Of a stretch of 64,000 nt of DNA, positions 3,961-41,994 are shown one piece after another. The stretch comes from Parvibaculum sp. (lineage in GTDB: Bacteria > Pseudomonadota > Alphaproteobacteria > Parvibaculales > Parvibaculaceae), in the NCBI GenBank assembly GCA_030649335.1, contig JAUSLL010000119.1, forward strand, positions 1-64,000, given 5' to 3'. Under the pieces are notes generated by a model. It searched no databases, was not told the DNA's origin, and worked only from the letters and a program-made list of their open reading frames with translations. Made by a program: the position numbers and the translations under genes. Each line of letters begins with the position of its first letter. Within the stretch, counting starts at the first letter, position 1.

Positions 3961-3976
3961 GGCGCAAAACGCCTGA

Positions 3977-4181: not shown

Positions 4182-4500
<319 letters not shown>

Positions 4501-4586
4501 TACCAAAGAGTCACGTGCAAACCGAAGACCTCTTGCGAGAGGCATTTTGTAGTCTGATTGCTCCGCAAACAGTCACGAGACACAGA

Positions 4587-4623: not shown

Positions 4624-4921
4624 AATCACCAGCACCTTCAAGACCGCTTGGCCGATCACAGAAGTCTCCGTCGTTACGGGGACTTGCGGCGCATATGTGA
4701 ATCGCGTTGTCCTAAAATGTCTCTCTGTGGAGGGGCTCTTTACGCATTTCTGGGGTCTGTTCTCTGTGGGCCTCATAACAAGACCGCTCCAGCTTTATTC
4801 GATGCTCAATGATGCACGGCGATGCTGCTACTTTCTGGCCCTTTTGGTCTGGAACTTTGCGGGACGGATGAAGCCCGCGTGGAGCGCGGGCTTGCTGGCG
4901 CAGGCAGATTTGAGTGGACTT

Positions 4922-6577: not shown

Positions 6578-7020
6578 GCAGCCTCCTTCCGACGCGCGTT
6601 CTTTTTCTTGAGTCCGAAGAAGAGAGGTCCATTCCAGTGTGTGCCTGTGATCTCGCGAGCGATCTCGGAGAGACTTCGCCAGACTCGATTCTCAAAGACA
6701 TATCCCTTGTCGAGGACCTGCACCTGATAGGTCTTGCCACGCCACTCTCGGACAAGCGTTGCACCAGAGTTGATCTTCTGAGTCGGCTGTGAAGCGCCAG
6801 GTTCTTTGCCTGACCGAAGGTCAGTCATCAGAAGGGTAACGTGCTCACGGATCCCTCGATCATGTCCGCCGTGTGTCTTGCTCTGCTGTTGCCATCCGAC
6901 ACCGAGTTCGAGCAACTCGCGCCCCGCGCGCGGTGGTGGAGGGGTGCCGAAGGCGTTGGTCCAGAAGCTACGTAGGCTTGCGATGGTGAGGCCAGCTAAG
7001 TTGAGTCCCGCGTCCGTCAT
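6574..7020 (-). CDS. DUF2924 domain-containing protein
   Basis: 148-residue protein of unknown biochemical role. Core motifs include SLRSFWTNAFGTPPPP at about 15-30, GATLVREWRGKTYQVQVLDKGYVFENRVWRSLSEIAREITGTHWNGPLFFGL toward the C-terminus, and a basic end. These match the DUF2924 family, which recurs next to serine recombinases and DUF3489 proteins in alphaproteobacterial prophages and islands. It overlaps the recombinase start by 4 bp and the DUF3489 stop by 4 bp, so the three are almost certainly cotranscribed. A DNA-binding or recombination-directionality role is plausible by association only. Confidence 0.85.
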   Translation of the reverse strand: MTDAGLNLAGLTIASLRSFWTNAFGTPPPPRAGRELLELGVGWQQQSKTHGGHDRGIREHVTLLMTDLRSGKEPGASQPTQKINSGATLVREWRGKTYQVQVLDKGYVFENRVWRSLSEIAREITGTHWNGPLFFGLKKKNARRKEAA

Positions 7021-7289
7021 TGACGGCCACCCTCGGCAGCAACTTTGGAGAGGCGGTAGACCCGGCCACGATTTTCATCGGTTGCGGCGGTGATCGCCAG
7101 CCCATGCCGTTTCCGAAGCGATCCGCTTATTGCTCCTCGTACGGAGTGGGGCTGCCAACCTGTAGCCTTGATGAGATCGTCAAGCGTGGCGCCTTTTGTG
7201 CGTTGCAACAGGCGGATGATCTGTCCGAGCTTGGAATTTGAGGGAATTGTGGTTTGGGCGTTTGAATTGGGTTTTGCACGCGATGCCAT
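7017..7289 (-). CDS. DUF3489 domain-containing protein
   Basis: About 90 residues from MASRAKPNS. The body KLGQIIRLLQRTKGATLDDLIKATGWQPHSVRGAISGSLRK is a winged-helix-like DUF3489 domain, so DNA binding is likely. The ORF track starts 96 bases further upstream (7385), but the extra residues resemble no family member and the family starts close to the basic N-terminus used here. It is first gene of the recombinase cassette, overlapping DUF2924 by 4 bp. The CRISPR array begins 155 bp upstream on the other strand. Confidence 0.8.
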   Translation of the reverse strand: MASRAKPNSNAQTTIPSNSKLGQIIRLLQRTKGATLDDLIKATGWQPHSVRGAISGSLRKRHGLAITAATDENRGRVYRLSKVAAEGGRQ

Positions 7290-7444
7290 GTTTGGGCTCC
7301 ATTTCTGGCGGGCTCCTGCCGACCAGGCGCCCTCACCCCGAAAAGCCCTGGGTCTTATCCCGAAGGGCCTGTGCGGTGTCCGCACAAGGACATGGATGCT
7401 TCCTTTGCCGTGGAAGTCCAGTCTCGTCTCTCTCTTTGTGGAAT

Positions 7445-8469
7445 GTTGCGGCTGGTCAGCGATTTTCTATCGGCTAAACTCGTATCGGATATCGGGACCG
7501 GATCGGGCGCGTTGCGGCTGGTCCGCGATTTTCTATCGGCTAAACTGACGCCGCTCATTCACTTGCCCTCCTGTGGGTTGCGGCTGGTCCGCGATTTTCT
7601 ATCGGCTAAACTGCTCGGCCTGCGCGCGAGCGATCTGTTCATGTTGCGGCTGGTCCGCGATTTTCTATCGGCTAAACTCGGGCCGGTAATCGACCGGCGA
7701 CATCTTGGGTTGCGGCTGGTCCGCGATTTTCTATCGGCTAAACTCAAACTTACGAAGGACTGAACAATGACAGAGTTGCGGCTGGTCCGCGATTTTCTAT
7801 CGGCTAAACTAAGTGCCAGACACACAACTTATCAGGAGACGTTGCGGCTGGTCCGCGATTTTCTATCGGCTAAACTAGCGTGAAATAAAAACGCTATTCC
7901 GACGCAGTTGCGGCTGGTCCGCGATTTTCTATCGGCTAAACTTTACTGATGCTGTCCCATCTTTGCGAATAGTTGCGGCTGGTCCGCGATTTTCTATCGG
8001 CTAAACTTGGCGAATATGAGTGGCTGGTGATGCGTCAGTTGCGGCTGGTCCGCGATTTTCTATCGGCTAAACTCTCTGCTATCAAGGATGCCTTGTGCCC
8101 AAAGTTGCGGCTGGTCCGCGATTTTCTATCGGCTAAACTTGCAGCAACAAGAGTGAGCACTGCGGCGGCGTTGCGGCTGGTCCGCGATTTTCTATCGGCT
8201 AAACTTCAACAACGCAGCGGGATTAGCCCGCCGCAGTTGCGGCTGGTCCGCGATTTTCTATCGGCTAAACTATACATACTGATACATGCTGAGAGACATA
8301 CGTTGCGGCTGGTCCGCGATTTTCTATCGGCTAAACTAAACCCCGGCGCGGGCAACGGATCGGCAACGTTGCGGCTGGTCCGCGATTTTCTATCGGCTAA
8401 ACTGCACAAAGAGGATTGCATTGTGCCTAAGGCGTTGCGGCTGGTCCGCGATTTTCTATCGGCTAAACT
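7445..8469 (+). CRISPR. Type II-C CRISPR array: 16 repeats, 15 spacers
   Basis: The 36-bp repeat begins GTTGCGGCTGGTCCGCGATT and ends TCTATCGGCTAAACT. Repeat starts are 7445, 7511, 7577, 7643, 7709, 7775, 7841, 7907, 7972, 8038, 8104, 8170, 8236, 8302, 8368 and 8434. All spacers are 30 bp except one of 29 (7943-7971). The repeat at 7445 differs (GGTCAGC for GGTCCGC); the other 15 looked identical. The strand is taken as plus because the tracrRNA at 13.2 kb is complementary to the repeat read this way. The variant repeat is therefore at the transcriptional 5' end and the conserved end faces cas2. All spacers differ from each other. No target search was possible. Confidence 0.98.
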
Positions 8470-8495
8470 CGATGTTGTGCCAAGTCTCTGATTTA

Positions 8496-8882: not shown

Positions 8883-9809
8883 CTAGCAGTCGAACTGTCC
8901 GCTGATGTTGGGCAGTTCGAGTGGCAGAAGTGTGCGCGGTAATATCAAGGTTGGTTTCCCTGCTTCAAATGACTGGGCAAGCGAATAGGTAAGACGTTCG
9001 GCGCAGGTTGAGACGGGTGTTGTGCCTTGCTCGGTCGCCATATCGAAGGCGAGGACCTCAGCCAGTACAGCTTTGGTTTCGGGTGACACGTCTGTGGCGC
9101 CGGCCGATTGAAGACGAGAGACGGTGTAGTCAACGATGGGGCGAAAGGGCTCCATCAGATCATCGACAAGACACATGGGATTGTTGCGATTGCTGTGATG
9201 CAGCCCGACAGAAGGGTGCAGCCCAGCGGTGGTGACAGCGCGCGCCACGCCAGCGCGCAATACTGTATAGCCATAATTGAGCATGGCATTGACGCCGCCG
9301 GCGTCACGGTCACGACGAAATGTTTCACCCATGAGCAATGGCCAATAGCGTCGGGCCGCCTGAGCTTCGATGTTTTCGGGGTCGCCGGATTTCACTTTGC
9401 GAGCGAGCAGGTCGAAAGCGCCGTCCGGCTTGCCAAGCCTTTCGAGCACCGCGCCCTGCTGTTCAATTTTCGCACGCACGATGACCTGCCATAGCCGTTT
9501 ACGCAGCGGGGCGCCGACTTCCAATTGATGTCTCATGCGCAGGCTCTGCACATGATGCCCATCAAGCGGCCAGAGCCAGGCAATGGGCATATGGTTTGGC
9601 CCGCATAACACAACGCAAGCGCCGCGCTTGGCCAGTTCGACCATTAGATTATTGGAGTAAGTCAAACCGTGCGCGTGGCAAAGCAGCACGCCAATATCAT
9701 CAAGCGGAATGCGGGCCACTTCTGTTCTGTCATGTGAGACAGTAAGAAAGCCGCGCGAAAGGGCCAGATGTCTGTCGTCGCTGGCAATTTCGACGACGCG
9801 GCCGATCAT
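8883..9809 (-). CDS. cas1: CRISPR-associated endonuclease/integrase Cas1
   Basis: Metal-dependent integrase that inserts new spacers. The 308 residues fit type II Cas1. The N-terminal beta domain (VVEIASDDRHLALSRGFLTV, IPLDDIGVLLCHAHGLTYSNNLM) is followed by an alpha-helical catalytic domain. Visible active-site motifs are AMLNYGYTVLRAGVARAV near residue 180-195, GLHPSVGLHHSNRNNPMCLVDDLMEPFRP at about 198-226 with its His and Asp/Glu metal ligands. The start overlaps the cas9 stop by 4 bp (ATGA). Confidence 0.96.
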   Translation of the reverse strand: MIGRVVEIASDDRHLALSRGFLTVSHDRTEVARIPLDDIGVLLCHAHGLTYSNNLMVELAKRGACVVLCGPNHMPIAWLWPLDGHHVQSLRMRHQLEVGAPLRKRLWQVIVRAKIEQQGAVLERLGKPDGAFDLLARKVKSGDPENIEAQAARRYWPLLMGETFRRDRDAGGVNAMLNYGYTVLRAGVARAVTTAGLHPSVGLHHSNRNNPMCLVDDLMEPFRPIVDYTVSRLQSAGATDVSPETKAVLAEVLAFDMATEQGTTPVSTCAERLTYSLAQSFEAGKPTLILPRTLLPLELPNISGQFDC

Positions 9810-12800
9810 GCCGCTCTCGGTCCGACGGGTGTGCGAGGTCCGGGGTCGGTCAATCTGCCGATTTCATCGACACCGACTTTACGGAAGTTCTTTTTTTGTA
9901 GCCCGCTACAACTTTCGGCTAGATATTTCAGTTCCTTATTTCGTACCCGCGCATCGACATTTCCCTCGTTGTGGTCGGCAAGATAGACGTACTCTTTGCC
10001 GCTCTGGGTGCTCATCTTACAGACGCGCACAATCCTTCGTTCGGGACCTTCACCGATGGCCCCCATGTCGTCAATGTGTAGCCGCATCAGTTTTTTTGCG
10101 GCCGGATGAGGGCGGAAATCGGCTGGATTGAATCCCCGCTGGTTGGCATCAAAACGGCGAACGATCACGGTTCTCCAGCCTCCGTCCGGCAAGGCCCAGA
10201 CTTCGGCAAATTCATTACCGTCCGGTTTATATGCCTTGTAGGGTTTTCCAGTCTTGCGATCCTTGATGGCGATGACACCAAGTTCATCGTATATCCTTAC
10301 GCGCCGTACTTTCTGGATGCGCCCGCTGATTTTTACGCCTTGGGTGGCAACCATTTCGGCGAAAGCGACGGCGAGGTTTTGAGGTTTTTTGCGGCTGTCC
10401 GGGTTGTCAGGATTTGTAGTGTCCGGCGGCGCGAGTTTGAAGGCTTCCCATGCTCCGGTGAGGGCCTCGCGCAGAGCTGCATCGCGGATCGCAGGAAGGC
10501 CATTGTCCATGTCTTTGGGCGTGGAAAACTTGGCAAGCGGCACGCGATAGACGACCTGCGTATTGCCCTTTTTGCCCGGCCCGACAATGCCATAGGCCGT
10601 GTCGTTGTGCAGCGCGCCAGTTGTCATGCCCTTTTTGCCCGGTGAACCGTGATCGGTCTTATGGGCCACCGTCAATCGCGCAAGCTGCGCACGCAGGACT
10701 TCGCGATCAAAATCTTCCCACGGATCGGGTATGGCGTCGATCAACCGCTTTCGGTCCGCATTGGCGTTAAGCTGTGAAATTAATTGCAACAACCGTTGAT
10801 CGGTCATGGCGACGACAAAGGCGTCCAGGGCGTGATGGCGGTGATCATCGCGGTTCTTGCGTGGCGGCGCATCCTCTGCGCCTACGCGGTTGTGACCAGG
10901 CAGCAAGGACGACAGGCCCCATTTGCCACGCAGCATGGCGGTAAGCTTGCCGGGAATGGCACGCACCCGCAGGCGACCTTCGTCTTTTTCATTATAGAGG
11001 TGCGCCAGATAGCTTCTTGCAATGCGTGAAAGATATTTTGTCTCGTTGAGCTGCCGGTCGAGGAACCCACGTTCCTCGTTTTCATAACGCTCCATCGCAT
11101 CGGCATGAAAGCGCCAGCGTTTGTTGCCCTCGAGCTTGTCGGTGCGGAACAATATATCGTCATAGACATATTTGCGGGGTCCGATAGTCGGGTCGTTCTG
11201 GAAGGCTTCAAAAGGGGCGCGATCCCGCTTGGCGCGGTTCGCTTCGCGCAGGCAGATCACCTTGTTGGCCATCGAGTCATCAAGCGTTTTTGAGAAGGGC
11301 AGAATGTGCTCGATCTCAGTCGCATCGGAAATCGCCATTTCGAAGGATATGGCATCACCGGTGAACGGGCAGAGATTGACGGTGCCGACTTTTTGCTCCT
11401 CCCAAAGCCGCAGCTTGCGCAAGAGATGGGGTGAGGGGGCAACGCCTGCGGCGCGGATTTTTTCATCGCGCGCGCGGTTGGCGGCCTCGTTCAGACTATT
11501 CTTTTTGCGCGCCTCGTCCTTTTGTTCCTTATTCATTTTGAGATCGCGGGCAAGCTCGACCACGATTTCCTCCGGTCTGCCGTGAACCTCGATGACACGA
11601 TTAACCGTACGGCGGATCTGATTGAGGCCGATATGAACCGTGGGGTTGGCGAGCCGCCCATAATGCCCCACCTCGTCTTCTTTGGGTTTGGAAGGATCGG
11701 CACCGACGCAATGGCGGGTCAGCACTTCGGCATAATAGGGCAGGTGGTCGCGGACTTTATCTGGCCGAAAGTCGGAGTGATGGCCATATTCCGGCACCTC
11801 GGCCACCGCCTCGGCATAGTTGAGACCTTGCCCCTCCATGATTGGCAACAGACGCGCAATCGCTTTTTCGCTGAGGCGCGCATAGCCCTCGGGCATAGCC
11901 TTGGCGGCAAGCTTTTTGGCGGCGGCTTCATTAAGTCCCCATTCGGCCATAGCGATACGCTCAATCTCTTCGGGTTTTTCCGTTTCGATCAGCTTACGCA
12001 CAATCTCGGTGCGGCGTTCGACCGGAAAGTCGAGCCAGCCTTTGCCGAATATATGATCGCTTTTCAGTCTGTCTGACGCCTCCTCGCCCTTGATAGTCGT
12101 CCGGTGGTCATCGAAAAGATTGACGGTCGATCCGGATGGAAGCTTGAGAAACTTCAGCATCTGCTCAAGTTTCAATTCTTTTCTTGTGCGCAAATGGTCG
12201 AGCACCTTGTCGCGCTCGATCATGGTCAGAGGTCGTGCGGGCTGGCCGGGACATTGAACGCGCAGATTGTTCGCCTCCTGCACCATGCGGAATTCCTGTG
12301 TGAGGGGCAGTGCGCGATGGGCGCGTCGCTCACCTTCCTCCATCAGACACCAACCCGGATCAACCGGCTTCAAGGGGCGCTGGAAAAAGATGATATCGCG
12401 TAAGGCATCCCATTGTTCGGGGCTGAGAGTCTGATGCGGCGCTTGCGTCTCATGGATCGCGGCGAATTCGTCTTCGTACATTTGCCGGTCGGGATAAAAA
12501 CCCGCTTCGGGTCGGGCACGCACCATGCGGCCTTTGACGTGTCGCTTGTGGAAATATTCGCCCAGCGTGCGCGCGCCGGTTTTCTCCATCAGCTTGCGAA
12601 GTTCGTTAATCCGTTCCTTGACGACACCTGTCTCCTTGTCTGCGTCACCACCATCAGTTTTGCGATTGCTCTTGAAACCACGACGCTGATTGAGGTGGAA
12701 GAGGGCGCGGCCCAATTCATGCGGCGCAAGCGGACGGTCAATTGCGGCCGCTCGGAGAATATAAGGATCAAGGTTCTCCAGCGCTTTGCGTTCGGCCTCG

Positions 12801-13060
12801 TCATCCGGCATCAGCCCGAAGGCGACCAGAAACTCCATCAGGCCGGAGCGGCGGTCGAGATAACGGTCGCGTCGCCGCCGCATGCCGCGCGGTACACGCC
12901 GCTGAACCGCCAGCGATGACTGGTCCTTGGGATTGCGGCCGTCGCCGAAAATGCGAGAGCCCCCACCGAGCGAGCTGCGGGGCACGCCGTCCTGATCGAG
13001 TTCCACCGCCCACCAGCCAATGGAATTTGTACCGAGGTCCAGTCCGAGCCTATAGCGCAT
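9806..13060 (-). CDS. cas9: CRISPR-associated endonuclease Cas9, subtype II-C
   Basis: RNA-guided DNA endonuclease, 1084 residues from MRYRLGLDLG. RuvC-I is LGLDLGTNSIGWW with Asp8. An Arg-rich bridge helix follows (RRVPRGMRRRRDRYLDRR, 54-71). RuvC-II is EEIVVELARDLKMN with Glu502. HNH is TEIEHILPFSKTLDDSMANK with His585 and Asn599. RuvC-III is DDHRHHALDAFVVA with His743 and Asp746. All catalytic residues are present, so both nuclease sites should be active. The ORF track adds 16 upstream residues (13108), but the ATG at 13060 has an AGGAAA site 8 bp upstream and puts RuvC-I at the usual position. The short REC region fits II-C. The PAM cannot be read from sequence. Confidence 0.97.
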   Translation of the reverse strand: MRYRLGLDLGTNSIGWWAVELDQDGVPRSSLGGGSRIFGDGRNPKDQSSLAVQRRVPRGMRRRRDRYLDRRSGLMEFLVAFGLMPDDEAERKALENLDPYILRAAAIDRPLAPHELGRALFHLNQRRGFKSNRKTDGGDADKETGVVKERINELRKLMEKTGARTLGEYFHKRHVKGRMVRARPEAGFYPDRQMYEDEFAAIHETQAPHQTLSPEQWDALRDIIFFQRPLKPVDPGWCLMEEGERRAHRALPLTQEFRMVQEANNLRVQCPGQPARPLTMIERDKVLDHLRTRKELKLEQMLKFLKLPSGSTVNLFDDHRTTIKGEEASDRLKSDHIFGKGWLDFPVERRTEIVRKLIETEKPEEIERIAMAEWGLNEAAAKKLAAKAMPEGYARLSEKAIARLLPIMEGQGLNYAEAVAEVPEYGHHSDFRPDKVRDHLPYYAEVLTRHCVGADPSKPKEDEVGHYGRLANPTVHIGLNQIRRTVNRVIEVHGRPEEIVVELARDLKMNKEQKDEARKKNSLNEAANRARDEKIRAAGVAPSPHLLRKLRLWEEQKVGTVNLCPFTGDAISFEMAISDATEIEHILPFSKTLDDSMANKVICLREANRAKRDRAPFEAFQNDPTIGPRKYVYDDILFRTDKLEGNKRWRFHADAMERYENEERGFLDRQLNETKYLSRIARSYLAHLYNEKDEGRLRVRAIPGKLTAMLRGKWGLSSLLPGHNRVGAEDAPPRKNRDDHRHHALDAFVVAMTDQRLLQLISQLNANADRKRLIDAIPDPWEDFDREVLRAQLARLTVAHKTDHGSPGKKGMTTGALHNDTAYGIVGPGKKGNTQVVYRVPLAKFSTPKDMDNGLPAIRDAALREALTGAWEAFKLAPPDTTNPDNPDSRKKPQNLAVAFAEMVATQGVKISGRIQKVRRVRIYDELGVIAIKDRKTGKPYKAYKPDGNEFAEVWALPDGGWRTVIVRRFDANQRGFNPADFRPHPAAKKLMRLHIDDMGAIGEGPERRIVRVCKMSTQSGKEYVYLADHNEGNVDARVRNKELKYLAESCSGLQKKNFRKVGVDEIGRLTDPGPRTPVGPRAA

Positions 13061-13170
13061 CGTGCGTTTCCTATTAAGAAGGCGGCATTTTGCTGATTGG
13101 CCGCACACTCCAACTCAATTGCCGTGATTTGCATTCAGTTCAAATTAGCCATTTTCTAGTCAAAAGGATC

Positions 13171-13495: not shown

Positions 13496-14206
13496 CTAAT
13501 CGGGTATCGCCTTGGTAATCATTCTGAGAATCCGACGCTCACTTGCGATGCTATCCGCAATAGCCTTGTTCTTCGGATCCTTTGCCAGTAGCGCCTCCAA
13601 CGCAGCTATAGATTTCTTGAAGCTCTTCTTGCGTTTCCGCAATTCGTCCCAAATTTTCTTGTCTTCGGGTGTCATGGGACCCCTCACCTCTGCCCTGCCC
13701 GTATTCATATCGATAATAATGTCGTCTGGATGGGGGATCATTTCAGGAGCAGGGATACCCAATTTCTTGCAGCGCTCAATTTCTTTCATCCCATCAATTT
13801 TGTATTCGATCATGGTCTTGATGTACTCGTCGTGCAGCGCCTTCTTATCTTCCTCCACAACTCTCAAAAGATCGGTGAACGTTTTCTGTGCCTTTGCATT
13901 TCCCTTCGCAGCCGAGAGTGCTACACCGCGCAAAATAGCCTGAACAACTGGTATCTCGACGAGCTTTTCACCGTCACGCACGCTGATAGTGCGATAGGCC
14001 TCTTCCTGAACAATGTCCTTCATGCGCTCTTCGCTCATGTGTGGAACGCCTGTGGCTACGGCTTTCTTTTTTGGGCGCCCGTTTGGATTTCCAGATTGTC
14101 CAGGCTTGAATCTTGTCGCGGCGGGTGGCTTTCCGTAGCCCACTGCTTCGTCATCCGCATTATTTTCAGTATCAAGCTTTCTCGCTTCTGCTCGACGCAC
14201 ACTCAT
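13496..14206 (-). CDS. DUF5681 domain-containing protein
   Basis: 236-residue protein with the DUF5681 signature RFKPGQSGNPNGRPKK at about residues 32-47. Polar, helical sequence follows and then a charged region with RKRKKSFKKSIAALEALLAKDPKNKAI. The family is common in phages and islands, often beside DNA methyltransferases or terminases. Its function is not established, and small-terminase-like or DNA-binding roles are only suggested by context. It overlaps the methyltransferase stop by 4 bp and so is translationally coupled to it. Confidence 0.8.
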   Translation of the reverse strand: MSVRRAEARKLDTENNADDEAVGYGKPPAATRFKPGQSGNPNGRPKKKAVATGVPHMSEERMKDIVQEEAYRTISVRDGEKLVEIPVVQAILRGVALSAAKGNAKAQKTFTDLLRVVEEDKKALHDEYIKTMIEYKIDGMKEIERCKKLGIPAPEMIPHPDDIIIDMNTGRAEVRGPMTPEDKKIWDELRKRKKSFKKSIAALEALLAKDPKNKAIADSIASERRILRMITKAIPD

Positions 14207-18039: not shown

Positions 18040-18811
18040 TGCTGCCTCCGTTTTTCTGTGCCGCACGCACGGTTTGCAAATCGCTGCGTGTCGCCATCTG
18101 GAGTGCGGCGATGTCGGTGGTAACGGAAATCATCTGAAAGCCCTGCTCGATGCGCAGAGGTGCCACTTTCGAATTGGAAAGAACGGCGGTCGCGATCTTT
18201 GCGTCCTTGGCGGCCTTGCTCACCTTCGCGATGGCAGCATCAAAGACGGGCTTGCCGTCATTATCGCCCGGCGGAAGACCCAGCGCGATGGACAGGTCGA
18301 ACGGGCCGACAAACAGCGCGTCAACGCCCGGAACATTGGCGATCTCTTCGACAGCGGCTAAAGCCTCTTTCGTTTCGATCATCGGGATGACGGCAACGCG
18401 CGCATTGGCTTCCATGAAATAGCCTTGTCCGTCTCGCAAGCTCACGCGCACGGGGCCGAAGCTGCGTCGACCATGCGGCGGATAGAGACATGCCTCGACG
18501 GCGCGTTGCGCGTCTTCAACGGTCTGGATCATGGGGATGACAATGCCGAGTGCGCCTGCGTCGAGCACACGACCGATGATGCCCGGATCGTTCCACGGCA
18601 CACGTACAATCGGCACGGCGGATGTGAGGTCAATGGCGCGGATCATGGCGAGGGCGGTCTCGTAATCCATACAGCCATGCTGCATGTCGATGAGAATCCA
18701 ATCGAAGCCGCCGCGGGCGAGCGCTTCTGCACCAAGAGCGCCCGGCATCATGGCCCAGGCGCCGAGCGTGACCTCGTCATTGCTCCAGCGTGATTTGAGA
18801 CTTTCCGTCAT
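18032..18811 (-). CDS. HpcH/HpaI family aldolase (4-hydroxy-2-oxo-heptanedioate aldolase-like)
   Basis: Class II, divalent-metal pyruvate aldolase that splits a 4-hydroxy-2-oxo acid into pyruvate and an aldehyde or semialdehyde. 259 residues from MTESLKSRW. Family motifs are [20 protein letters not shown] (base His), [65 protein letters not shown]. The track's earlier start adds eight residues; ATG 18811 has GGAA upstream. It is first gene of a two-gene operon with the hydratase, downstream of a 19-bp element also found before the HpaB homologue. Confidence 0.88.
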
Positions 18812-18850
18812 TGTGTTTCCTTCCCTGACGCCCATTGCTTTGACGCGGGC

Positions 18851-18869
18851 TTGTCTAATAAATGACTGT
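18851..18869 (-). promoter_or_regulatory. Shared 19-bp element upstream of the aldolase-hydratase operon
   Basis: Minus strand ACAGTCATTTATTAGACAA, almost the same as ACAGTCATTATTGAGACAA at 19785-19803 before the HpaB homologue. The two sites flank the TetR gene on either side. Likely a common operator. Confidence 0.6.
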
Positions 18870-18923
18870 CATCATAATTGATTAAAGTCAATAAATTGTC
18901 TGTCAGGGAGGGCGTGGAAAGTG

Positions 18924-19646
18924 TCAGGCCTTGCGGGATGTCTTTTTTGCGGGCGAAGGGCGCGATGCCTTTGCCTGATCGATCAGACCTTCAACGCCGA
19001 TGGCAAGTTTGATGCGAAGTCTTTTGAGGAGGCGTGCTTTTGAGCCGACGCCGCTGATCCAATTGAGCAGGCTCAGATAATAGATTCCGAAAAGCGCCTC
19101 GGCCGCCATCAGGGGGTCGACGCTTTGGCGAATATCTCCGGCAGCCTGTCCGGCGATAATGACATCGCCGATGCCTTTGTAGATGCCGCGCATCAGGCGT
19201 GCGAGATCCTCGCTCGGTGTTCCGTCTGCGCGCACCGAAACTTCCTTCAGCAGCGGTCTTGTGAGTTCCCTGTCCTGATCGTGATATTCGATCATCGAGT
19301 TGAAGACGAGCATCAGCTTGTCGAGCAGAGCAGCGGAAGGGGGCAGGTGTCTGAAGGCGTTTTGTGCCTCTTCAAGCATGTCGCCGCTGAAGACCATGAC
19401 CAGCAGTTCTTCCTTGGATTTGGCATAGAGGAAGAGTGTGCCCGTTCCGATATCGGCTTTCTCGGCGATTTCCTGAGTCGTCGTATCGGCGAATCCCTTA
19501 GTGGCGAAAAGCTCTTTTGCGGCAGCAATAATCCGGTCGCGCTTTTCCTGTTTGTTGCGTTCGCGACGACCGGTTTCCGGCGTGGTTTCAACGCGCGAAT
19601 CCTTCGTTTGTTTGCTTGCGGGCTTTTTCGCCAAATTCTTCGCCAC
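18924..19646 (-). CDS. TetR-family transcriptional regulator
   Basis: 240-residue regulator. A basic N-terminal extension (about 30 residues, Lys/Arg/Thr-rich) precedes the HTH: IIAAAKELFATKGFADTTTQEIAEKADIGTGTLFLYAKSKEELL at about 40-83. The ligand-binding half ends in a basic tail (SRPSPAKKTSRKA). It sits between the aldolase-hydratase operon and the divergent hpaB-like operon, both of which carry the same 19-bp element. It is the likely local repressor; the effector is probably the aromatic substrate or its CoA ester, which cannot be read from sequence. Confidence 0.9.
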   Translation of the reverse strand: MAKNLAKKPASKQTKDSRVETTPETGRRERNKQEKRDRIIAAAKELFATKGFADTTTQEIAEKADIGTGTLFLYAKSKEELLVMVFSGDMLEEAQNAFRHLPPSAALLDKLMLVFNSMIEYHDQDRELTRPLLKEVSVRADGTPSEDLARLMRGIYKGIGDVIIAGQAAGDIRQSVDPLMAAEALFGIYYLSLLNWISGVGSKARLLKRLRIKLAIGVEGLIDQAKASRPSPAKKTSRKA

Positions 19647-19752
19647 GAATTGTCTCTTTCTTGAAAATAAAGAAGCACCAACAAATCAACGCGTTAGTGG
19701 TCCTAATGTCCAACGGCTGCCGCGCCAAGTCCAGCTTTGCGGCATTGGCCGC

Positions 19753-19780
19753 TTGACAGTCTGCACTTTGGCAATAAACT
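19753..19780 (+). promoter_or_regulatory. Predicted promoter of the hpaB-like operon
   Basis: TTGACA (19753-19758), 16-bp spacer, TAAACT (19775-19780). The start point would be near 19787, at the edge of the operator-like element. Confidence 0.55.
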
Positions 19781-19784
19781 GAGT

Positions 19785-19822
19785 ACAGTCATTATTGAGA
19801 CAAATCATAAAATAAGTCTCAA
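19785..19822 (+). promoter_or_regulatory. Operator-like element before the hpaB-like operon
   Basis: Contains ACAGTCATTATTGAGACAA, shared with the aldolase operon, and a perfect 7-bp inverted repeat TTGAGAC (19795-19801) / GTCTCAA (19816-19822) with a 14-bp gap. Placed over and after the predicted transcription start, where a TetR repressor would block transcription. Confidence 0.55.
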
Positions 19823-19890
19823 CAGGGTCCAGCCGCAGCGCGCATGTCGTGCCCGACGGGGGACCTGCTCAAAAACGGAGGGAACGCGAG

Positions 19891-21390
19891 ATGGCTGCAC
19901 GTACGGGTGAGCAATTTCTAAAAGGTCTGGTTGATGGTCGCGAGGTCTGGGTCGGCAACGAAAAAGTATCCGATGTGACTGAGCATCCGGCCTTTGCCGG
20001 CGCGGCGCGCGGTCTCGCCGCCACATTCGACTTGCAGCATGAGTTTGCCGACGATTGCCTGATGGCAGATTCGGAAACCGGCGAGCAGATCAATGTCAGC
20101 CACATGATCCCGCGCTCCAAGGAAGACCTGAAGACGCGTCACAAGGGTTTGCAGCGGACAGCCGAATATACGGTCGGTGTTATGGGGCGCTCGCCTGACT
20201 ACATGAATGTGACCTATGCAGGCTTTGCCGGACGTTCCGACGAATGGAGCGCAAACGGCAATGAAGAAGGCGGCGAAAACCTGGTCAAATATCAGAAGTT
20301 CTTGCGCCGTGACGACATCTCGCTGACCCACACCATCATCCAGCCGACCATCGACAAGGCGGAAGGCGATGCGCCGAAGCCCGGTAATAAGGTTTCGTTG
20401 CGTAAGGTGGGCGAAACCGAACATGGCATCATCGTGCGCGGTGCGCGCATTCTGGCGACGCTTGCGCCTTTTGCTGACGAGATTGCCGTCTATCCCGGTG
20501 CGCCGCTCCTGCCGGGCACCGACGATTACGCGCTCGCCTTCTGCATTCCGATGAATACACCCGGCTTGAAATTCATTTGCCGCGATAGCTGTGCAGGCTC
20601 GCGCAATGCTTTCGATCATCCGCTGTCATCGCGCTTCGATGAGCAGGACGCCTATGTGATTTTCGATGATGTCGAAGTACCGTGGGATCGTCTGCACATC
20701 AACTGCAACATGGCCGTTTACAATCAGGTCATGCGCACGGGCTGGTTCCCCAACATCATGCAGCAGACCATGATCCGCGCGCAGACCAAGCTCGAATTTG
20801 CTTGGGGCATGGCCGCGCGCATGGCGGAATCGATCAATGCGGTGCAGCCGATCAACGCGCAAATGCTCGGCGAAATCTGGACCTTTGCCGAACTCGCTCG
20901 TTCGACCATTCAAACTGCCGAAGACAATGCGCATGAGCATGGCAACGGGGTGTGGTTTCCTCAAGGGGCACCATTGGTAGCGCTGCGTGCCTCACTGCCG
21001 CATTGGTTTCCGCGCGTGAACGAAATCGTCCGTCTGATCGGCTCGCATAATCTGTTGGCCGCTCCGACTGCCGCTCAATTTGCGGACCCCAAACTGCGGC
21101 CTCTGATTGAAGAGTTCATGCACGGGGCAGGTGATGTGAGTGCCGAAGCGCGCGCACGCATTTTCCGTCTGGCGTGGGACTTCTCCGGCAGCGCACTTGC
21201 CAGCCGCAACGAACAATATGAGCGTTTCTATCTGGCGTCCGGTGCGCGCAATCAACAATTGGCTCACATGATGGGCGACCGCGCACGGGCCGACCGTCTC
21301 GTTGATCGCTTCATGACGGAACCTTACGGCGAAGCGGACGCTTCCAATGGCGCTTCAAAGAAAAGCAAAAAAGTAGGACAGGCAGCATGA
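19891..21390 (+). CDS. 4-hydroxyphenylacetate 3-hydroxylase (HpaB) family protein, FADH2-dependent oxygenase
   Basis: Large component of a two-component aromatic hydroxylase that uses FADH2 from a separate reductase to ortho-hydroxylate a phenol. 499 residues from MAARTGEQFL; family length is about 480-520. Motifs: RSPDYMNVTYAGFAGRSDEW, RRDDISLTHTIIQPTIDK, DDVEVPWDRLHINCNMAVYN, and a C-terminal helix pair. The C-terminus is Lys/Ser-rich (SKKSKKVGQAA). ATG 19891 has GGAGGG upstream and is preferred over 19849. It is first gene of the operon and overlaps the dehydrogenase by 4 bp. No HpaC-type flavin reductase lies nearby. The exact phenolic substrate is not known. Confidence 0.88.
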   Translation: MAARTGEQFLKGLVDGREVWVGNEKVSDVTEHPAFAGAARGLAATFDLQHEFADDCLMADSETGEQINVSHMIPRSKEDLKTRHKGLQRTAEYTVGVMGRSPDYMNVTYAGFAGRSDEWSANGNEEGGENLVKYQKFLRRDDISLTHTIIQPTIDKAEGDAPKPGNKVSLRKVGETEHGIIVRGARILATLAPFADEIAVYPGAPLLPGTDDYALAFCIPMNTPGLKFICRDSCAGSRNAFDHPLSSRFDEQDAYVIFDDVEVPWDRLHINCNMAVYNQVMRTGWFPNIMQQTMIRAQTKLEFAWGMAARMAESINAVQPINAQMLGEIWTFAELARSTIQTAEDNAHEHGNGVWFPQGAPLVALRASLPHWFPRVNEIVRLIGSHNLLAAPTAAQFADPKLRPLIEEFMHGAGDVSAEARARIFRLAWDFSGSALASRNEQYERFYLASGARNQQLAHMMGDRARADRLVDRFMTEPYGEADASNGASKKSKKVGQAA

Positions 21391-22847
21391 GCAACAACAC
21401 AGTCACCGTTGCAGGAGTAGAAATCTCGACAGACCACTTTATCGGTGGAAAGCGTGTCGCCTCAGCCAATCGCTTTGCCAATATTTCGCCGGTCGATGGA
21501 TCGCATCTCGGCGATTTGTCGGCGGGTGGCAAGATCGAAGCCAATGCCGCCGTTGAAGCTGCTCGCAAAGCTTTTCCCGCTTGGGCAGCTCTTGGCCCCA
21601 AAGGGCGGTTGCCGATCCTGAAAAAATTTGCTGAAGGCATTCTCGCCCGCGCCAATGAGCTCGCCGCGGTTGAAACGATGGACAATGGCTCGCTCCTCAC
21701 GGGCAATGTCCATCGCGTCATTCCGCGCGCGGCCCACAACATTGATTTCTTTGCCGAATGGGCGCTGACCCTCGAAGGGCATACGATCGACTCGCCCGAA
21801 GTTGTCAATCACGTCAAATATGATCCTTCCGGCGTTGCCATTCTCATCACGCCGTGGAACGCGCCCTTCATGCTGACGACTTGGAAGGTTGGACCGGCTC
21901 TGGCAGCAGGTAACACCATCGTCATCAAACCGCCGGAGTGGGCACCGCTCACATGCTCGCTCATGGCCGATATTGCCAAAGCGGCGGGTGTGCCCGATGG
22001 CGTGCTCAATGTGGTGCAAGGTATCGGTGAGGACGCGGGCGACGCGCTCGTCAATCATCCGGATGTTGATCGCATCAGTTTCACGGGCTCGACCGACACC
22101 GCCAAGATCATCGGACAGGCGGCAGCCCGCTCGATCACGCCGATGAGCTCGGAGCTTGGTGGTAAATCACCTTTCATTATTTGTGCGGATGCCGATCTAG
22201 ATGCGGCCGCCCAAACAGTGGCCGCCCAATACATGAATGCCGGACAGGTCTGCCTTGCGGGCACGCGCATCATGGTGGAAAAAAAGATCGAGGAACAATT
22301 CCTCGAAAAAGTGCGCGGAGCATCGAGCCACATGATTGTTGGCGACCCCCGCGATAAGGACACCCGCGTCGGACCGCTGATCCACAAAGAGCATTTTGAT
22401 CGCGTTGCCGGTTTTGTCGAGCGTGCCAAGGCGGACGGTGCCGTTCCGGTCTGGGGTGGCGGGAGGTCAAATTTCGGCGACCTCTATTTTGAGCCCACGC
22501 TCTTTGCGGACGTCAACCCGACGCTCGAAATCTCGCAGCGTGAAGTCTTCGGGCCCGTGCTCACCTGGCAGAGTTTCAGCAGCGACGATGAAGTCGTGAC
22601 GCTTGCTAACAACACGAAGTATGGACTTGCGGGCACCTTGTTCAGCCGCAACGAAAAGCGGGCAATGGACATTGCCTCGCAGGTGGCAGCCGGAACGCTG
22701 TGGGTCAACTGTTTCTTTGTCCGTGATCTGGCGGCACCCTTCGGTGGCTCGAGAGATTCCGGCATCGGTCGTGAGGGCGGCAGCTGGAGCTTCGATTTCT
22801 ATTCCGACATAAAAAATATTTCGGTCCGCAAAGGATCGTTCGCTTGA
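21387..22847 (+). CDS. Aldehyde dehydrogenase, semialdehyde dehydrogenase of a meta-cleavage pathway (HpaE-like)
   Basis: NAD(P)-dependent oxidation of a ring-cleavage semialdehyde to the acid. 486 residues. ALDH landmarks: ITPWNAPFMLTTWKVGPALAAGNTIVIKP, FTGSTDTAKIIGQAAA, MSSELGGKSPFIICADADLD with the general-base Glu, and the nucleophile Cys in AGQVCLAGTR near residue 290. Terminal FDFYSDIKNISVRKG resembles HpaE (5-carboxymethyl-2-hydroxymuconate semialdehyde dehydrogenases). It overlaps the hydroxylase by 4 bp and precedes the extradiol dioxygenase by 35 bp, which supports that assignment. Confidence 0.88.
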   Translation: MSNNTVTVAGVEISTDHFIGGKRVASANRFANISPVDGSHLGDLSAGGKIEANAAVEAARKAFPAWAALGPKGRLPILKKFAEGILARANELAAVETMDNGSLLTGNVHRVIPRAAHNIDFFAEWALTLEGHTIDSPEVVNHVKYDPSGVAILITPWNAPFMLTTWKVGPALAAGNTIVIKPPEWAPLTCSLMADIAKAAGVPDGVLNVVQGIGEDAGDALVNHPDVDRISFTGSTDTAKIIGQAAARSITPMSSELGGKSPFIICADADLDAAAQTVAAQYMNAGQVCLAGTRIMVEKKIEEQFLEKVRGASSHMIVGDPRDKDTRVGPLIHKEHFDRVAGFVERAKADGAVPVWGGGRSNFGDLYFEPTLFADVNPTLEISQREVFGPVLTWQSFSSDDEVVTLANNTKYGLAGTLFSRNEKRAMDIASQVAAGTLWVNCFFVRDLAAPFGGSRDSGIGREGGSWSFDFYSDIKNISVRKGSFA

Positions 22848-37450: not shown

Positions 37451-38272
37451 CTATCGCAGCAGGGCTATACGTTCCTTGAGGGCTTCAATGCCAACGGCGC
37501 CGGAGAGCACGTCGCTCCCTAGAACATAACTTGGTGTGCCGCCAATATTAAGGGCTTGTGCAAGTTGCGACGACTCATCAAGTGTTGCCGTCACTTCAGC
37601 ACTCGACAGGTCCGCTTCAAGCCGCGTCATATCCAGACCTAGACCTTTGGCAACCACCTTCGCGCGCTCACCATCCGCTGGGCCATGGCCTTCAAGAAGT
37701 TGGCGATGAAACGCCAGATAGAGTTTTCCATCCTTATCCTGCATGCGCACAGCTATCGCGACACGAGATGCTGCCAGCGAGTCAGGGCCAAGGATGGGAT
37801 ATTCTTTCAGAACGATGCGGAGATTCGGATCCGTTTTTAGTAGACCCAGCATGTCGGGCAACGCCCGTTTGCAGTAACCGCAGTTATAGTCAAAAAACTC
37901 CACCAGCGTGATCTGGCCTTCAGGGTCACCCAAAGTCACCTGATGCGGTGAGTGAAGCAGGGCTTGCTCATTCTGTGCGATGGCGACAGCGGGACTGAGT
38001 GACGGCTGTGCTTGCGCTGAGCCGCTTTCCTTTTTCAACAGACTTGAAATCATGTCGGTCAATGCTTCGGGATGCGCTTGCATGTACTTTGAAATGGCAG
38101 GCTGCAACGCATCCGGGTTCGCGGCAAGATAGTTGCCGAACGCATCCTCATCACTGGCGGTTGTTGATGTGGTATGTTGGCCAGCCCAATAGCCAAATCC
38201 ACCGGCGGCCAGCATCAACAATCCCACGATAGTCCAAAGGCGCGGTTGAATAACCAGTGTGATGGGTTTCAC
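37451..38272 (-). CDS. DsbA-family thiol:disulfide oxidoreductase, membrane-anchored
   Basis: 273 residues. N-terminal anchor or uncleaved signal (LWTIVGLLMLAAGGFGYWAG, 12-31), a helical ScsC/DsbA-type N-terminal segment, then a thioredoxin fold with Cys131-Gly-Tyr-Cys134 (FFDYNCGYCKRALP) and cis-Pro in NIGGTPSYVLGS. It acts in the periplasm, making or shuffling disulfides. It is encoded directly after two Cys-rich exported proteins with 4-bp overlaps, which suggests it is dedicated to folding them. Confidence 0.9.
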   Translation of the reverse strand: MKPITLVIQPRLWTIVGLLMLAAGGFGYWAGQHTTSTTASDEDAFGNYLAANPDALQPAISKYMQAHPEALTDMISSLLKKESGSAQAQPSLSPAVAIAQNEQALLHSPHQVTLGDPEGQITLVEFFDYNCGYCKRALPDMLGLLKTDPNLRIVLKEYPILGPDSLAASRVAIAVRMQDKDGKLYLAFHRQLLEGHGPADGERAKVVAKGLGLDMTRLEADLSSAEVTATLDESSQLAQALNIGGTPSYVLGSDVLSGAVGIEALKERIALLR

Positions 38273-38607
38273 TGCTCACTACCTGACTTGGCGCAGAGGC
38301 AGCGCGACCCCTGCAATTGCCATTTGCAATGTGCGACTTCCTCAATATTGGGGACGAGTTCTGTGATGTCTTTGACATCGGCGCGCCCACAATACCAGCG
38401 CCCGCACCCGTCTTGTTTGACGACACCGGGAATGGCGTCGGTTTTACGTTCGCATTTGTCGCCTGTCCGAGCGGCCGCCTGTCGTTCATCTGCACCATAG
38501 GCAGGCGGCAGAGAGACAGAGAGGGTGAGCATGACGAAAGCGAGACACGCAACGAGGCGTGATGGTGTGACGCTGAAAAAATCGCGCAATGAGATGAACG
38601 GCATCAT
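38269..38607 (-). CDS. Small Cys-rich exported protein
   Basis: 112 residues. Signal peptide LVACLAFVMLTLSVSLPPAYG to about residue 39. The mature part has seven cysteines (DKCERK, GCGRWYCGR, HCKW, RCLCAK), enough for several disulfides. No known domain recognised. It overlaps the DsbA start and the large Cys-rich protein stop by 4 bp each, so it is tightly coupled to both. Confidence 0.7.
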   Translation of the reverse strand: MMPFISLRDFFSVTPSRLVACLAFVMLTLSVSLPPAYGADERQAAARTGDKCERKTDAIPGVVKQDGCGRWYCGRADVKDITELVPNIEEVAHCKWQLQGSRCLCAKSGSEQ

Positions 38608-40436
38608 GGTTTACCTGTACTGGGCGGCGCGGTGCGGTAGGAGTTTGGATCATAGCCGGTGCCAGAACCGCCGCTGCGGATACCAGGGTCGGTGGGGTCC
38701 GGCGCGGAACGCTGAGGTGTTGGGGTCGACATGCGCAGGCCCGGCAGGCATTTCTTTTTTGCGGCCGACCAATGCCATCCCATTTTGCACGGCTGCGGTG
38801 GTGTTTCGATTTCGGAGGGCACAGTCACATCAAGATTGCCATTCGGCTTGGGTGTCGAGATGGGCGCGTTGCTGACGCAATTCGCGCCTTGGCGGTTTGT
38901 GCCTTCCGGACACATGCATTGACCGACGCCCGCGCTATTCTTGCCCCACGTCATTGTGCCCGGGCAGCTAGAACACTGGTTGGATGAGGCAACATATTCC
39001 GTTCCCTGAGGGCATGGGGTGCATTTCTGGCTCGTGGCGCTTGCCCCAGAAGTTGCCGTTTCGCTCCAACTCATGCCAGCTGGGCATTTCGCTTTACATG
39101 TCTTCGTCGGGGCGTCCCAGAAATCCCAAGCCCTTGAGCAGAGCGACGTGCAGGAAGCAGCCCCCGCCTTTGAAACGGACCCAGCGGGGCAAACGGTACA
39201 GATGCCATTGAGACTGTAAGTGTTCTCACCACAGGTCGAGCAACTACCGAATTCGCCTTGAATGGCCCAGCCAGAACCCGGCTTGCAAAGCGGCTTGCAG
39301 CTTGCCGTTGCTGTGTCCCAAGCTTCACTTTCCTTACATTTGGAAAAGCAGCTTGAAGAACCCGCAGCCGAGGTCTTACCCACCGGACATTTCTGGCAGC
39401 TGCCGACACTCGTTCCATATGCTGTGCTGGCATAAGTGTTGGCGCTACATTGCAGACATGCGGTCCCAATCATAATCGAGCCTGAAGCGCAGGCGGCGAC
39501 GCATGTTTTGCCATTTGGCGACGCTTTTTGTCCCGCCGCGCAAGGCGTGCAGGTGCCGTCATTTCCCGGAATGGCGCTGGACGGGCAAGCCTTGCATTGA
39601 CCGTTTTTGTATCCCAGCCCAGACGGGCAGCGACAGGCAAATTTGGTACCGTCAGAGTTGCTCACTTGCACGCTTGGCTCAGGGCACCAACAACTCGAAA
39701 GATAATGTGGGCCACCCTGCTGATACTGCTGGCCTGGCACCCAGCCGCCTTCGCAAGGATAAATAGTGACAGTACTTTCTTGCTCTTCCTGAATGCCAGG
39801 TGTGAGGCCCGTGCCTTGCACGAGTTCGCCCCAGCTGTAAAAGAAATTGCCAATGGCGTCGGTGCCGCTTTCCAGAATGCCTCCCGTGCAAGACAGCGTG
39901 TCTTCGACAATTTTGGCGAGTGTTTCGGCGATGCCGCTATAGCGTACAGCGCAGGCGCAGCTCCAATTATTCGAGATGACATTCAAGCCAGGCGTCGAAT
40001 TCATAAACGTTATGAGCCCCTTTGCACCTTCTTCACTTGCATAGGAGGTCAGCTCGTTCTTAACGCTGTCGGGAAGGCCAAGCGCTGAGGCCAGAGCTGC
40101 CAATGCCGCTGCAATGGGTTTGCCAGCAACTCCGCCCAACGCCGCTTCGCAGCTATTGCCATTGTTGTAGGCCCCCGTCGACGCCTCGATGATGACGACG
40201 GCCGCAACAACGGCAAGGAAAGACGGGTTTGTTAAGTCACCCAGACATTGCCCGTGATCGGCAACGAAACTTGCCGCTTTGGCAACGTCACTTAGTCCAA
40301 AATCTGTTGCCAGCGCAACGCAGGCGTCGAGACCGGCCTGCGCTGGAGTGGGGGCTGCAATGGTCGCAGGAATGAGTGTTGCCAGAAAAAATGCAGCAAG
40401 CGTGACAAAACGAATGACCACGCGCGGCATTTTCAT
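38604..40436 (-). CDS. Large secreted Cys-rich repeat protein (GCC2/GCC3, ephrin-receptor-like repeats)
   Basis: 610 residues with a signal peptide (FVTLAAFFLATLIPATIAAPTPAQA). Residues about 35-200 form an Ala-rich helical N-terminal domain with a few cysteines. From about 230 on, repeated Cys modules of the type C-x2-C-x-AGx(S/T)-x-C run to about 520, for example CPAGSVSKAGAASC and CPVGKTSAAGSSSC. These resemble GCC2/GCC3 or ephrin-receptor-like repeats. A Pro/Ser/Thr-rich tail ends the protein. It is probably surface-exposed or periplasmic and disulfide-rich. It lies between two small exported proteins in an operon with a DsbA and a beta-barrel, all overlapping by 4 bp. Function unknown. 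Confidence 0.78.
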   Translation of the reverse strand: MKMPRVVIRFVTLAAFFLATLIPATIAAPTPAQAGLDACVALATDFGLSDVAKAASFVADHGQCLGDLTNPSFLAVVAAVVIIEASTGAYNNGNSCEAALGGVAGKPIAAALAALASALGLPDSVKNELTSYASEEGAKGLITFMNSTPGLNVISNNWSCACAVRYSGIAETLAKIVEDTLSCTGGILESGTDAIGNFFYSWGELVQGTGLTPGIQEEQESTVTIYPCEGGWVPGQQYQQGGPHYLSSCWCPEPSVQVSNSDGTKFACRCPSGLGYKNGQCKACPSSAIPGNDGTCTPCAAGQKASPNGKTCVAACASGSIMIGTACLQCSANTYASTAYGTSVGSCQKCPVGKTSAAGSSSCFSKCKESEAWDTATASCKPLCKPGSGWAIQGEFGSCSTCGENTYSLNGICTVCPAGSVSKAGAASCTSLCSRAWDFWDAPTKTCKAKCPAGMSWSETATSGASATSQKCTPCPQGTEYVASSNQCSSCPGTMTWGKNSAGVGQCMCPEGTNRQGANCVSNAPISTPKPNGNLDVTVPSEIETPPQPCKMGWHWSAAKKKCLPGLRMSTPTPQRSAPDPTDPGIRSGGSGTGYDPNSYRTAPPSTGKP

Positions 40437-40720
40437 CTAAATCTCCTGCCGCCCGGTGCCTGGATGCTGAGGATTTCGATGAGTTGGCGCGGCGGTTCAA
40501 TCACATCCTTATCGCCCGGCATGATCAGGGGCGCAGTATATGAAAGTTTGGGCTGCGTCATGAGGATAGACTGGTGACGCATCATGCGTGCGAGATGCGG
40601 ATTGATGCATTTTCCTGAAACCGTTTTCCCCTCACTGCAATCCTTACCCGCAGCGGCCGTGCTGGCGGAGGTCGATGTGAGAAGCAATGCAAGCGACAGA
40701 GCGAAGAAAATGGGGCGCAT
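40433..40720 (-). CDS. Small exported protein
   Basis: 95 residues from MRPIFFALSLALLL. Signal peptide ends near STAAA. The mature part has two cysteines (GKDCSEGKTVSGKCINPHLAR) then a Met/Pro-rich stretch. No family recognised. GAGAGA upstream of ATG 40720 supports this start. Its stop overlaps the start of the large Cys-rich protein by 4 bp, and it lies 11 bp after the beta-barrel gene. Confidence 0.65.
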   Translation of the reverse strand: MRPIFFALSLALLLTSTSASTAAAGKDCSEGKTVSGKCINPHLARMMRHQSILMTQPKLSYTAPLIMPGDKDVIEPPRQLIEILSIQAPGGRRFR

Positions 40721-40731
40721 GAACATCTCTC

Positions 40732-41994
40732 TCAAAACTGCCAACTGGTGCCGATGGTGGCTTGCCATGCATCGGTGTCAATTTCAGGAATGGCGGAGCC
40801 GGGTCCTAGCAACGTTTTGTCGGGGGTTTGATCCTGCTTCATCCAGATGCGCGCGACGTCCAAGCTTAACGACAGCGCAGGGTTCAGAGCATATTGCCCC
40901 GTGACCCCCACCGACCATTTCGTTTTGGCCGACAGGAATTGCAAATCGGTCGGGCTCCAAGCGTTGTGGTCGCGATAGAGAAAGCCGAGCGTCGGCCCAA
41001 TGATGTAATTCTCGCCGCTATAGGTCACATTGGAATCGAGCTGGATTACATTGCTGTTGGAGTTGAACGCTTCACTCACAAGCGAAGTTGTTCCAACGGG
41101 GAGGATCCTGTTTTTTTCAATATGCGAGAAGGACGCGTTGAGACGCGACGCTATCGCATCGTCCCACGCATAGGATAGGGCAAGCGTTGAGACGATGGTG
41201 CCACCACTTTGGTAATAGGGAGCGCCATTGACGGTTGTCTCAGTCTCCCCGGTATAGGAAAGCTGAGCCTGTGTTGTCAGACTATCGCCCTCATAGCCAA
41301 TGCCGATATTGACGCTATAGGTGTCGCCTGGATCAAGATTGCCCAATGTGGCTCGGTCATATGAGCCGCGGTAGGTGTAGCCGATGCCGAGAGAAGCGAG
41401 CAAATTCTCTGTTAACGGAATATTTGCACCGACTGATGCGCCGCCATTAAAACCTTCACCATACGTGTCGGCCGCAACGATATCCGAATCGCTGCTGGTA
41501 TTGGCCGCGCTCGACGAGCTTGAGTCACCCGTTGGCAAATTTGTGCTGAGAGAGAGAAAGGGCTGGAAGCTGCTGAAGCCGGTATAGGACAAGCTGGTGC
41601 TAAGCGATGTGTCTGTCGTGCCTTTGGTGGAGGAACTCACGCCATTATTTGACTGCCGCGAATAGACATAGCCCGAACGGATCTGGAGCTCGATGTTGAA
41701 GACATCTGCCGCCTGATGCGATAGCTGCAGCGCGATCGGGACATAGACCTGACTGCCGCTGCCGTCTGTGGACGCGGGTGCGGCGGGATAACCCGAAGTG
41801 CTTTCCCAAGAATAATATTGAACCTGTGAACTGAACGAGGCGGCCCATTGACCGGAGGCCTCATCCGTTACGGCAATTGCAGACAAATCATCCGCTAGGG
41901 CCTGTCGGCCCATAGGCAAGCCTAGTGAAGCCGCCAACAAAAAGGCGACGCCCGTTCGGTGCGTCACACATCTTGAATATAAATGCTGCCGCAT
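40732..41994 (-). CDS. Outer-membrane beta-barrel protein
   Basis: About 420 residues from MRQHLYSRCVTHRTG. Signal peptide AFLLAASLGLPMGRQALA. The rest alternates polar and aromatic residues in many predicted amphipathic strands (for example YSVNIGIGYEGDSLTTQAQLSYTGE) and ends in the outer-membrane signature SWQF with terminal Phe. It is similar in style to porin or phenol-MetA-type barrels. It could be a pore or an exporter for the downstream secreted proteins. First gene of the five-gene operon. A G7 tract lies directly before its start codon. Confidence 0.8.
   Translation of the reverse strand: MRQHLYSRCVTHRTGVAFLLAASLGLPMGRQALADDLSAIAVTDEASGQWAASFSSQVQYYSWESTSGYPAAPASTDGSGSQVYVPIALQLSHQAADVFNIELQIRSGYVYSRQSNNGVSSSTKGTTDTSLSTSLSYTGFSSFQPFLSLSTNLPTGDSSSSSAANTSSDSDIVAADTYGEGFNGGASVGANIPLTENLLASLGIGYTYRGSYDRATLGNLDPGDTYSVNIGIGYEGDSLTTQAQLSYTGETETTVNGAPYYQSGGTIVSTLALSYAWDDAIASRLNASFSHIEKNRILPVGTTSLVSEAFNSNSNVIQLDSNVTYSGENYIIGPTLGFLYRDHNAWSPTDLQFLSAKTKWSVGVTGQYALNPALSLSLDVARIWMKQDQTPDKTLLGPGSAIPEIDTDAWQATIGTSWQF

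Follow-up and report, generated by a model that had tools for sequence, protein, structure and literature searches.

An operon joining an outer-membrane beta-barrel, a cysteine-rich exported protein and a ScsC-type disulfide enzyme in Parvibaculum

Gene layout and surroundings

We analysed a stretch of 64,000 nucleotides (hereafter the window) from contig C15 of a Parvibaculum sp. genome of 3.54 Mb in 135 contigs. Five genes lie in a row on its minus strand and are followed by a hairpin:

40732-41994, minus strand: outer-membrane beta-barrel, 420 aa, with a signal peptide and a C-terminal Phe
40433-40720, minus strand: P2, small exported protein, 95 aa, with two conserved Cys
38604-40436, minus strand: Cys-rich exported protein, 610 aa, with a signal peptide and 42 Cys
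38269-38607, minus strand: P4, small exported Cys-containing protein, 112 aa
37451-38272, minus strand: DsbA-superfamily enzyme of the ScsC/Com1 type, 273 aa, GTG start
37428-37405, minus strand: terminator-like hairpin 3' of the DsbA stop, an 8-bp stem followed by TTTT

All five reading frames are present, and the preliminary description of a minus-strand operon with three exact 4-bp overlaps and the barrel gene 11 bp upstream was correct in its coordinates. By these coordinates, the overlaps fall at the P2/Cys-rich, Cys-rich/P4 and P4/DsbA junctions, and the 11 bp separate the barrel stop from the P2 ATG, with an alternative in-frame ATG at 5 bp. The hairpin is a consensus match only, of a kind frequent in the surrounding region.

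Searches of Pfam, NCBIfam, PHROGs and PADLOC gave zero matches for the barrel, P2 and P4 and a sub-threshold match only for the Cys-rich protein, and none of the papers found by a text search of the literature describes the operon. The earlier remark that it had no obvious description thus stands: so far as the searched libraries and papers show, the unit is undescribed, and each part corresponds to a known kind of molecule.

Other gene groups were observed in the window. Between 32068 and 37058 are genes for a PepSY protein, a response regulator and a histidine kinase and then, on the minus strand, for a JmjC/cupin oxygenase and two small exported proteins, acidic and rich in Asp and Ser, one of them with a Tat-like signal; this group may comprise an oxygenase and the exported proteins on which it acts. 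A CRISPR array of 16 copies of a repeat of about 36 nt at 66-nt spacing lies beside genes for Cas1 and a 1100-aa Cas9 (RuvC_III, HNH_4 and Cas9_a; PADLOC Cas9, 7e-90), the region occupying 7428-8470, 8883-9809 and 9806-13108.

A conserved barrel-P2 pair with variable additional genes

The barrel has the marks of an outer-membrane protein, namely a signal peptide, amphipathic strands, a C-terminal aromatic residue and a barrel fold. Its AlphaFold model, built on an 11-sequence alignment, was all-beta, with a single-domain outer-membrane barrel of about 14-16 strands as counted by eye (pLDDT 76.6). Structure prediction, one of the checks proposed beforehand, thus gave a plain barrel fold here and a poor model for the Cys-rich protein (pLDDT 43). 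Foldseek matched the barrel to OmpG, FadL, CymA and the PelB barrel with E down to 1.4e-10 and rmsd of mostly 8-17 Å, so that the structure matches settle class and not function; a profile search gave a weak match to the FadL homologue 3dwo (E 0.007). The protein shares with these barrels a single-domain fold, but it belongs to no sequence family, superposes poorly on them and is always followed by P2. Features of two-partner or autotransporter systems were absent: there was no Pfam match, no POTRA or passenger and no non-barrel domain in the 420-aa model.

To follow the operon beyond the window, we searched related and unrelated genomes. Neither the barrel nor the Cys-rich protein had a match among 24 other species of the host genus, and single-sequence searches with the Cys-rich protein (40 relatives, a class sample, GTDB patterns and plasmids) did not find the operon. 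The first true relative was reached through P2, on an 8-kb contig (L053) of genome G349, with the same gene order as the window and identities of 39% for the barrel, 48% for P2, 24% for the Cys-rich protein (924 aa) and 48% for DsbA. A GTDB-wide scan with two short patterns from the barrel pair then gave at least 10 further barrel loci. The ten other loci examined are titled Pseudolabrys, Xanthobacteraceae, Methylobacterium, Microvirga, Rhizobiales, Rhodospirillales or Proteobacteria, and their barrels are 31-41% identical to that of the window. P2, with the motif C-x-E-G-x-T-x-x-G-x-C-(V/I)-N-P ... Q-x-K-(L/I)-S, lies directly downstream of the barrel in all eleven loci, mostly 8-11 bp away, and among 385 sampled genomes of the class the barrel was present in two, the same two that gave clear P2 matches. 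This constant adjacency identifies the barrel and P2 as a core.

The order barrel, P2, Cys-rich protein and disulfide enzyme is common to the window, L053/L059 and L058, with varying intervening genes; compared with the window, the proteins of the latter loci are 39-41% (barrel), 45-48% (P2) and 48-49% (enzyme) identical. Of the eleven loci, four carry the Cys-rich gene: those of the window, of a Pseudolabrys and of a 'Rhodospirillales' MAG, and L062, where a contig end interrupts the gene. This makes three complete known copies and one truncated, most of them from MAGs. In all three complete loci the Cys-rich gene goes with a DsbA-like gene. A profile of the Cys-rich protein, run on the ten barrel genomes, matched only where the barrel locus carries the gene and in none of the seven others. 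Since seven loci have the barrel and P2 and lack the Cys-rich gene, we regard the Cys-rich protein and the disulfide enzyme as an extension of the core.

These results bear on whether the genes belong together at all. A chance or decaying cluster of unrelated envelope genes, adjacent with no joint function, would fit the absence of the operon from the 24 other species of the genus, the variation in additional genes between loci and the nature of P4, which had no relatives in our searches and is not conserved in the other loci. Against it stand the intact frames, the 4-bp overlaps, the co-occurrence of the genes and the order kept in distantly related genomes. The survey of neighbourhood conservation proposed at the outset found this order in three further loci from distant Alphaproteobacteria, two of them complete and one truncated; such recurrence already largely excludes a chance cluster, which we consider highly improbable.

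The preliminary description had suggested that the barrel could export the Cys-rich protein. A role as its dedicated exporter is not supported: seven loci, together with their whole genomes, have the barrel and P2 and no detectable Cys-rich gene, and the barrel fold is a plain one. A broader secretion or display system, in which the barrel with P2 is a pore carrying the Cys-rich and other passengers across the outer membrane, gains from the constant small partner and from the large exported gene that follows the pair in several loci (Cys-rich in four, Cys-free and 862 aa in L061). Yet POTRA, passenger and plug domains are all missing from the barrel, whose fold is closest to small-molecule channels, no passenger is obvious in most barrel-P2 loci (L060, L063, L065 and L066), and a pore of 14-16 strands would be hard to thread with a disulfide-folded rod; we hold a system of this type to be rather unlikely. 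Translocation of the Cys-rich protein through the barrel itself has no direct support; it is unproven because the fold is plainly FadL/OmpG/CymA-like, and we find it doubtful. Quite unlikely, too, is a scheme in which barrel and P2 form an undescribed gate or anchor for interchangeable large passengers, the isomerase of the Cys-rich version folding a eukaryote-like rod in the periplasm for surface display.

Further exported proteins were observed at these loci. The 862-aa protein of L061 (9542-12130), whose gene follows barrel and P2 in the passenger position, consists of Pro-rich repeats and then a long Gly/Ala/Val-rich hydrophobic stretch. Adjoining the DsbA gene in L053 (6477-7766) and L058 (6892-8376), and missing from the window operon, is a gene for an exported protein of 430-490 aa that belongs to no known family and is 22% identical between the two.

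The Microvirga locus L067 differs in its neighbours: P2 is fused C-terminally to a FecR domain (9443-10462), and a gene for a TIR-nSTAND-CHASE2-adenylate cyclase (3387-7562) is divergent from the barrel. Sinorhizobium NsrA is a beta-barrel receptor that acts with CHASE2 adenylate cyclases (PMC7529298, PMC13001267), and L067 resembles that system in that its barrel is accompanied by a FecR domain and a CHASE2 cyclase. By analogy, the barrel and P2 could be an outer-membrane receptor that signals inward, with the rod as an optional ligand-binding extension. We judge such a role decidedly unlikely, as this context occurs in one of the eleven loci, the window operon has neither a FecR nor a cyclase gene, and NsrA is far larger, its barrel being described as residues 600-1200. 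The likeness is one of neighbourhood.

The Cys-rich protein and the disulfide enzyme

The Cys-rich protein comprises an Ala/Gly-rich N-domain (residues about 35-225) that is predicted to be helical and contains a CxCA motif, an array (residues about 228-565) of C-x2/3-C pairs 10-16 residues apart, and a Pro/Gly-rich tail. Cys counts are even in the window protein (42) and in those of L053 (50) and L058 (48), with a similar ladder-like layout. Strict C-x2-C-P-x-G...C-x2/3-C modules occur three times in the window protein, where shuffles predict 0.002, and C-x2-C-[PA]-x-G four times, where they predict 0.07. These modules had been called GCC2/GCC3-like, which stands for the layout and not for family membership: the HMM search proposed as a check scored the window protein at 14.6 bits against Ephrin_rec_like/GCC2_GCC3 (PF07699), below the curated cut-off of 23.1, and gave no match for the Cys-rich proteins of L058 and L053. 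A plain Pfam scan returned TNFR_ELAPOR1_6th alone (15.4 bits against a cut-off of 33.2). The test itself works, since a 1830-aa protein from the same class (G214:C32), used as a positive control, had many PF07699 modules above the cut-off, the best at 40.6 bits. Foldseek with the model of the Cys-rich protein listed mastigoneme, meckelin, 4-1BB and CaSR chains; such Cys-rich rods fit the idea of a disulfide rod, with weak support at a pLDDT of 43. The window protein is thus like GCC2/GCC3 repeat proteins in its serial modules and its export, and unlike them, and the control, in falling short of the family cut-off; it is GCC/TNFR-like in layout and not a member of PF07699.

The control deserves mention as a genuine bacterial case of such repeats. 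Its alphaproteobacterial genome of 2.1 Mb carries ORFs of 1830 and 767 aa (18700-22460 and 13900-14150; L057) with about 30 tandem Ephrin_rec_like matches, many of them above the Pfam cut-off.

The Cys-rich proteins of L053, L058 and L062 clearly share the N-domain. The window protein scored 3.7-5 SD above shuffles with fixed Cys positions when compared with those of L053 and L058, and its N-domain alone was not significant by composition-corrected BLASTP. The sequence similarity being weak, layout, operon slot and co-occurrence also carry the tentative assignment of the window gene and its L053 and L058 counterparts as the same gene.

The enzyme matched Pfam DSBA (PF01323) with 87.9 bits (9e-25; cut-off 25.6), and CGYC and TP are visible in the alignment. 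The label DsbA therefore holds at the Pfam level, and the nearest full-length solved relatives are Caulobacter and Proteus ScsC: residues 55-269 align to residues 10-213 of 7rgv (CcScsC; 128.8 bits) and residues 58-266 to 4xvw (PmScsC; 77.5 bits), the solved relatives being 3gyk, 7rgv, 4xvw and 5id4. An N-terminal helix of the oligomerisation type completes the sequence features of ScsC, and the N-terminal anchor is probably uncleaved. CcScsC and PmScsC are disulfide isomerases trimerised by their N-terminal helix; CcScsC is a Cu(I)-binding protein, and PmScsC has been linked to copper resistance (PMC8900818, PMC5524982). Such isomerases would be well matched to a protein in which about 21 disulfides are expected. 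The window enzyme resembles the ScsC proteins (7rgv, 4xvw/5id4) over its full length, in the N-terminal helix, CGYC and the Thr-cisPro loop, the isomerase likeness being one of sequence. It differs in probably keeping its anchor and in being encoded with an outer-membrane barrel and a Cys-rich protein and not with an adjoining ScsB partner; no scsB-like gene was seen within the operon or in adjoining window genes. Operon-encoded disulfide enzymes have a precedent in a Salmonella fimbrial operon with the gene for BcfH, which is DsbA-like and trimeric.

With relatives that bind Cu(I) or are tied to copper resistance, and with eight CxxC motifs in the window Cys-rich protein, the operon might be read as one for metal handling, the barrel being a solute porin, the Cys-rich protein binding copper or another metal via CxxC and the enzyme being a copper-tolerance protein. 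The even Cys counts and the spacing are of the disulfide-ladder type, however, CxxC motifs number only five among the 50 Cys of the L053 protein, and neither ScsB nor a copper-transport gene was seen beside the operon, which makes this very unlikely.

The genome has its own DsbA of the same broad type (C37:11910, near accB/accC- and thiG-like genes), and the operon copy is therefore extra. The suggestion of a dedicated DsbA was borne out in that the operon enzyme is distinct from this one and travels with the Cys-rich gene. Its ancestry was examined in trees of increasing scope. In a 14-row tree the operon DsbAs came out as a single clade with a long stem (99/98), and the addition of Rhizobiales housekeeping DsbAs exposed the stem as a sampling effect and the enzymes as Rhizobiales-type. 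A 34-row tree that included the enzymes of barrel-bearing genomes placed them within a mainly Rhizobiales group (99/99); with long-branch paralogues in it, this tree did not recover them as one group. When these paralogues were removed (25 rows), the three operon enzymes and the partial L088, from a gene cut short where G412:C71 begins, grouped at 92/97. This group lies within a Rhizobiales clade (99/98) and neighbours housekeeping enzymes of Xanthobacteraceae. Grouping of the window enzyme with the DsbAs of the host genus was rejected (p-AU 3.6e-6). Because the 34-row tree leaves the operon group unresolved, a single origin of the operon enzymes is likely and not proven. The enzyme branches with Rhizobiales, apart from host-genus DsbA, and the host thus probably acquired the operon horizontally. 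A duplicated Rhizobiales housekeeping enzyme may have been recruited into the operon, which would then have spread to at least two other lineages.

A phage or plasmid origin had no support, no such carrier being found. The second DsbA genes of the congeners G018 and G014 lie beside a CcdA-like redox gene and not a barrel. An empty-site comparison via the flanking trxC found this gene only in G005, in a different context. Elsewhere in the window, a tRNA-Ala (4182-4257) precedes a gene for a large serine recombinase with Resolvase and Recombinase domains (4922-6577), a possible integration site or island boundary.

A proposed envelope assembly

Taken as a whole, we propose that the operon encodes an envelope assembly made of the barrel-P2 core, a disulfide-rich rod and a dedicated ScsC-type foldase, a reading to which we give a probability of about one half. 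As judged from the signal sequences or anchor in the reading frames, all five products would enter the envelope via Sec. The barrel would insert into the outer membrane, and P2 would be its small partner, either in the periplasm or at the outer membrane. To this core a few lineages would add a large protein, exported by Sec and bearing about 21 disulfides, and a periplasmic isomerase/oxidase of the ScsC type, which would form and reshuffle the disulfides of the Cys-rich protein, and also the small one of P2, so that folding would depend on it. Co-occurrence and ancestry make this enzyme-substrate step the best supported of the mechanism. We regard a stiff rod, receptor- or adhesin-like, as the most likely form of the Cys-rich protein, and the barrel-P2 core would keep the finished rod at the outer membrane or outside it. 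We infer its contact with barrel and P2 from their common operon, and it may be displayed on the surface.

Few bacterial proteins contain some twenty disulfides, and little is understood of their folding and placement in the envelope. In this operon such a presumed substrate is encoded together with its own ScsC-type enzyme and a barrel core, which makes enzyme-substrate specificity directly testable. Beyond the host, the barrel-P2 pair is an undescribed module of two genes, with a partner gene that differs among lineages.
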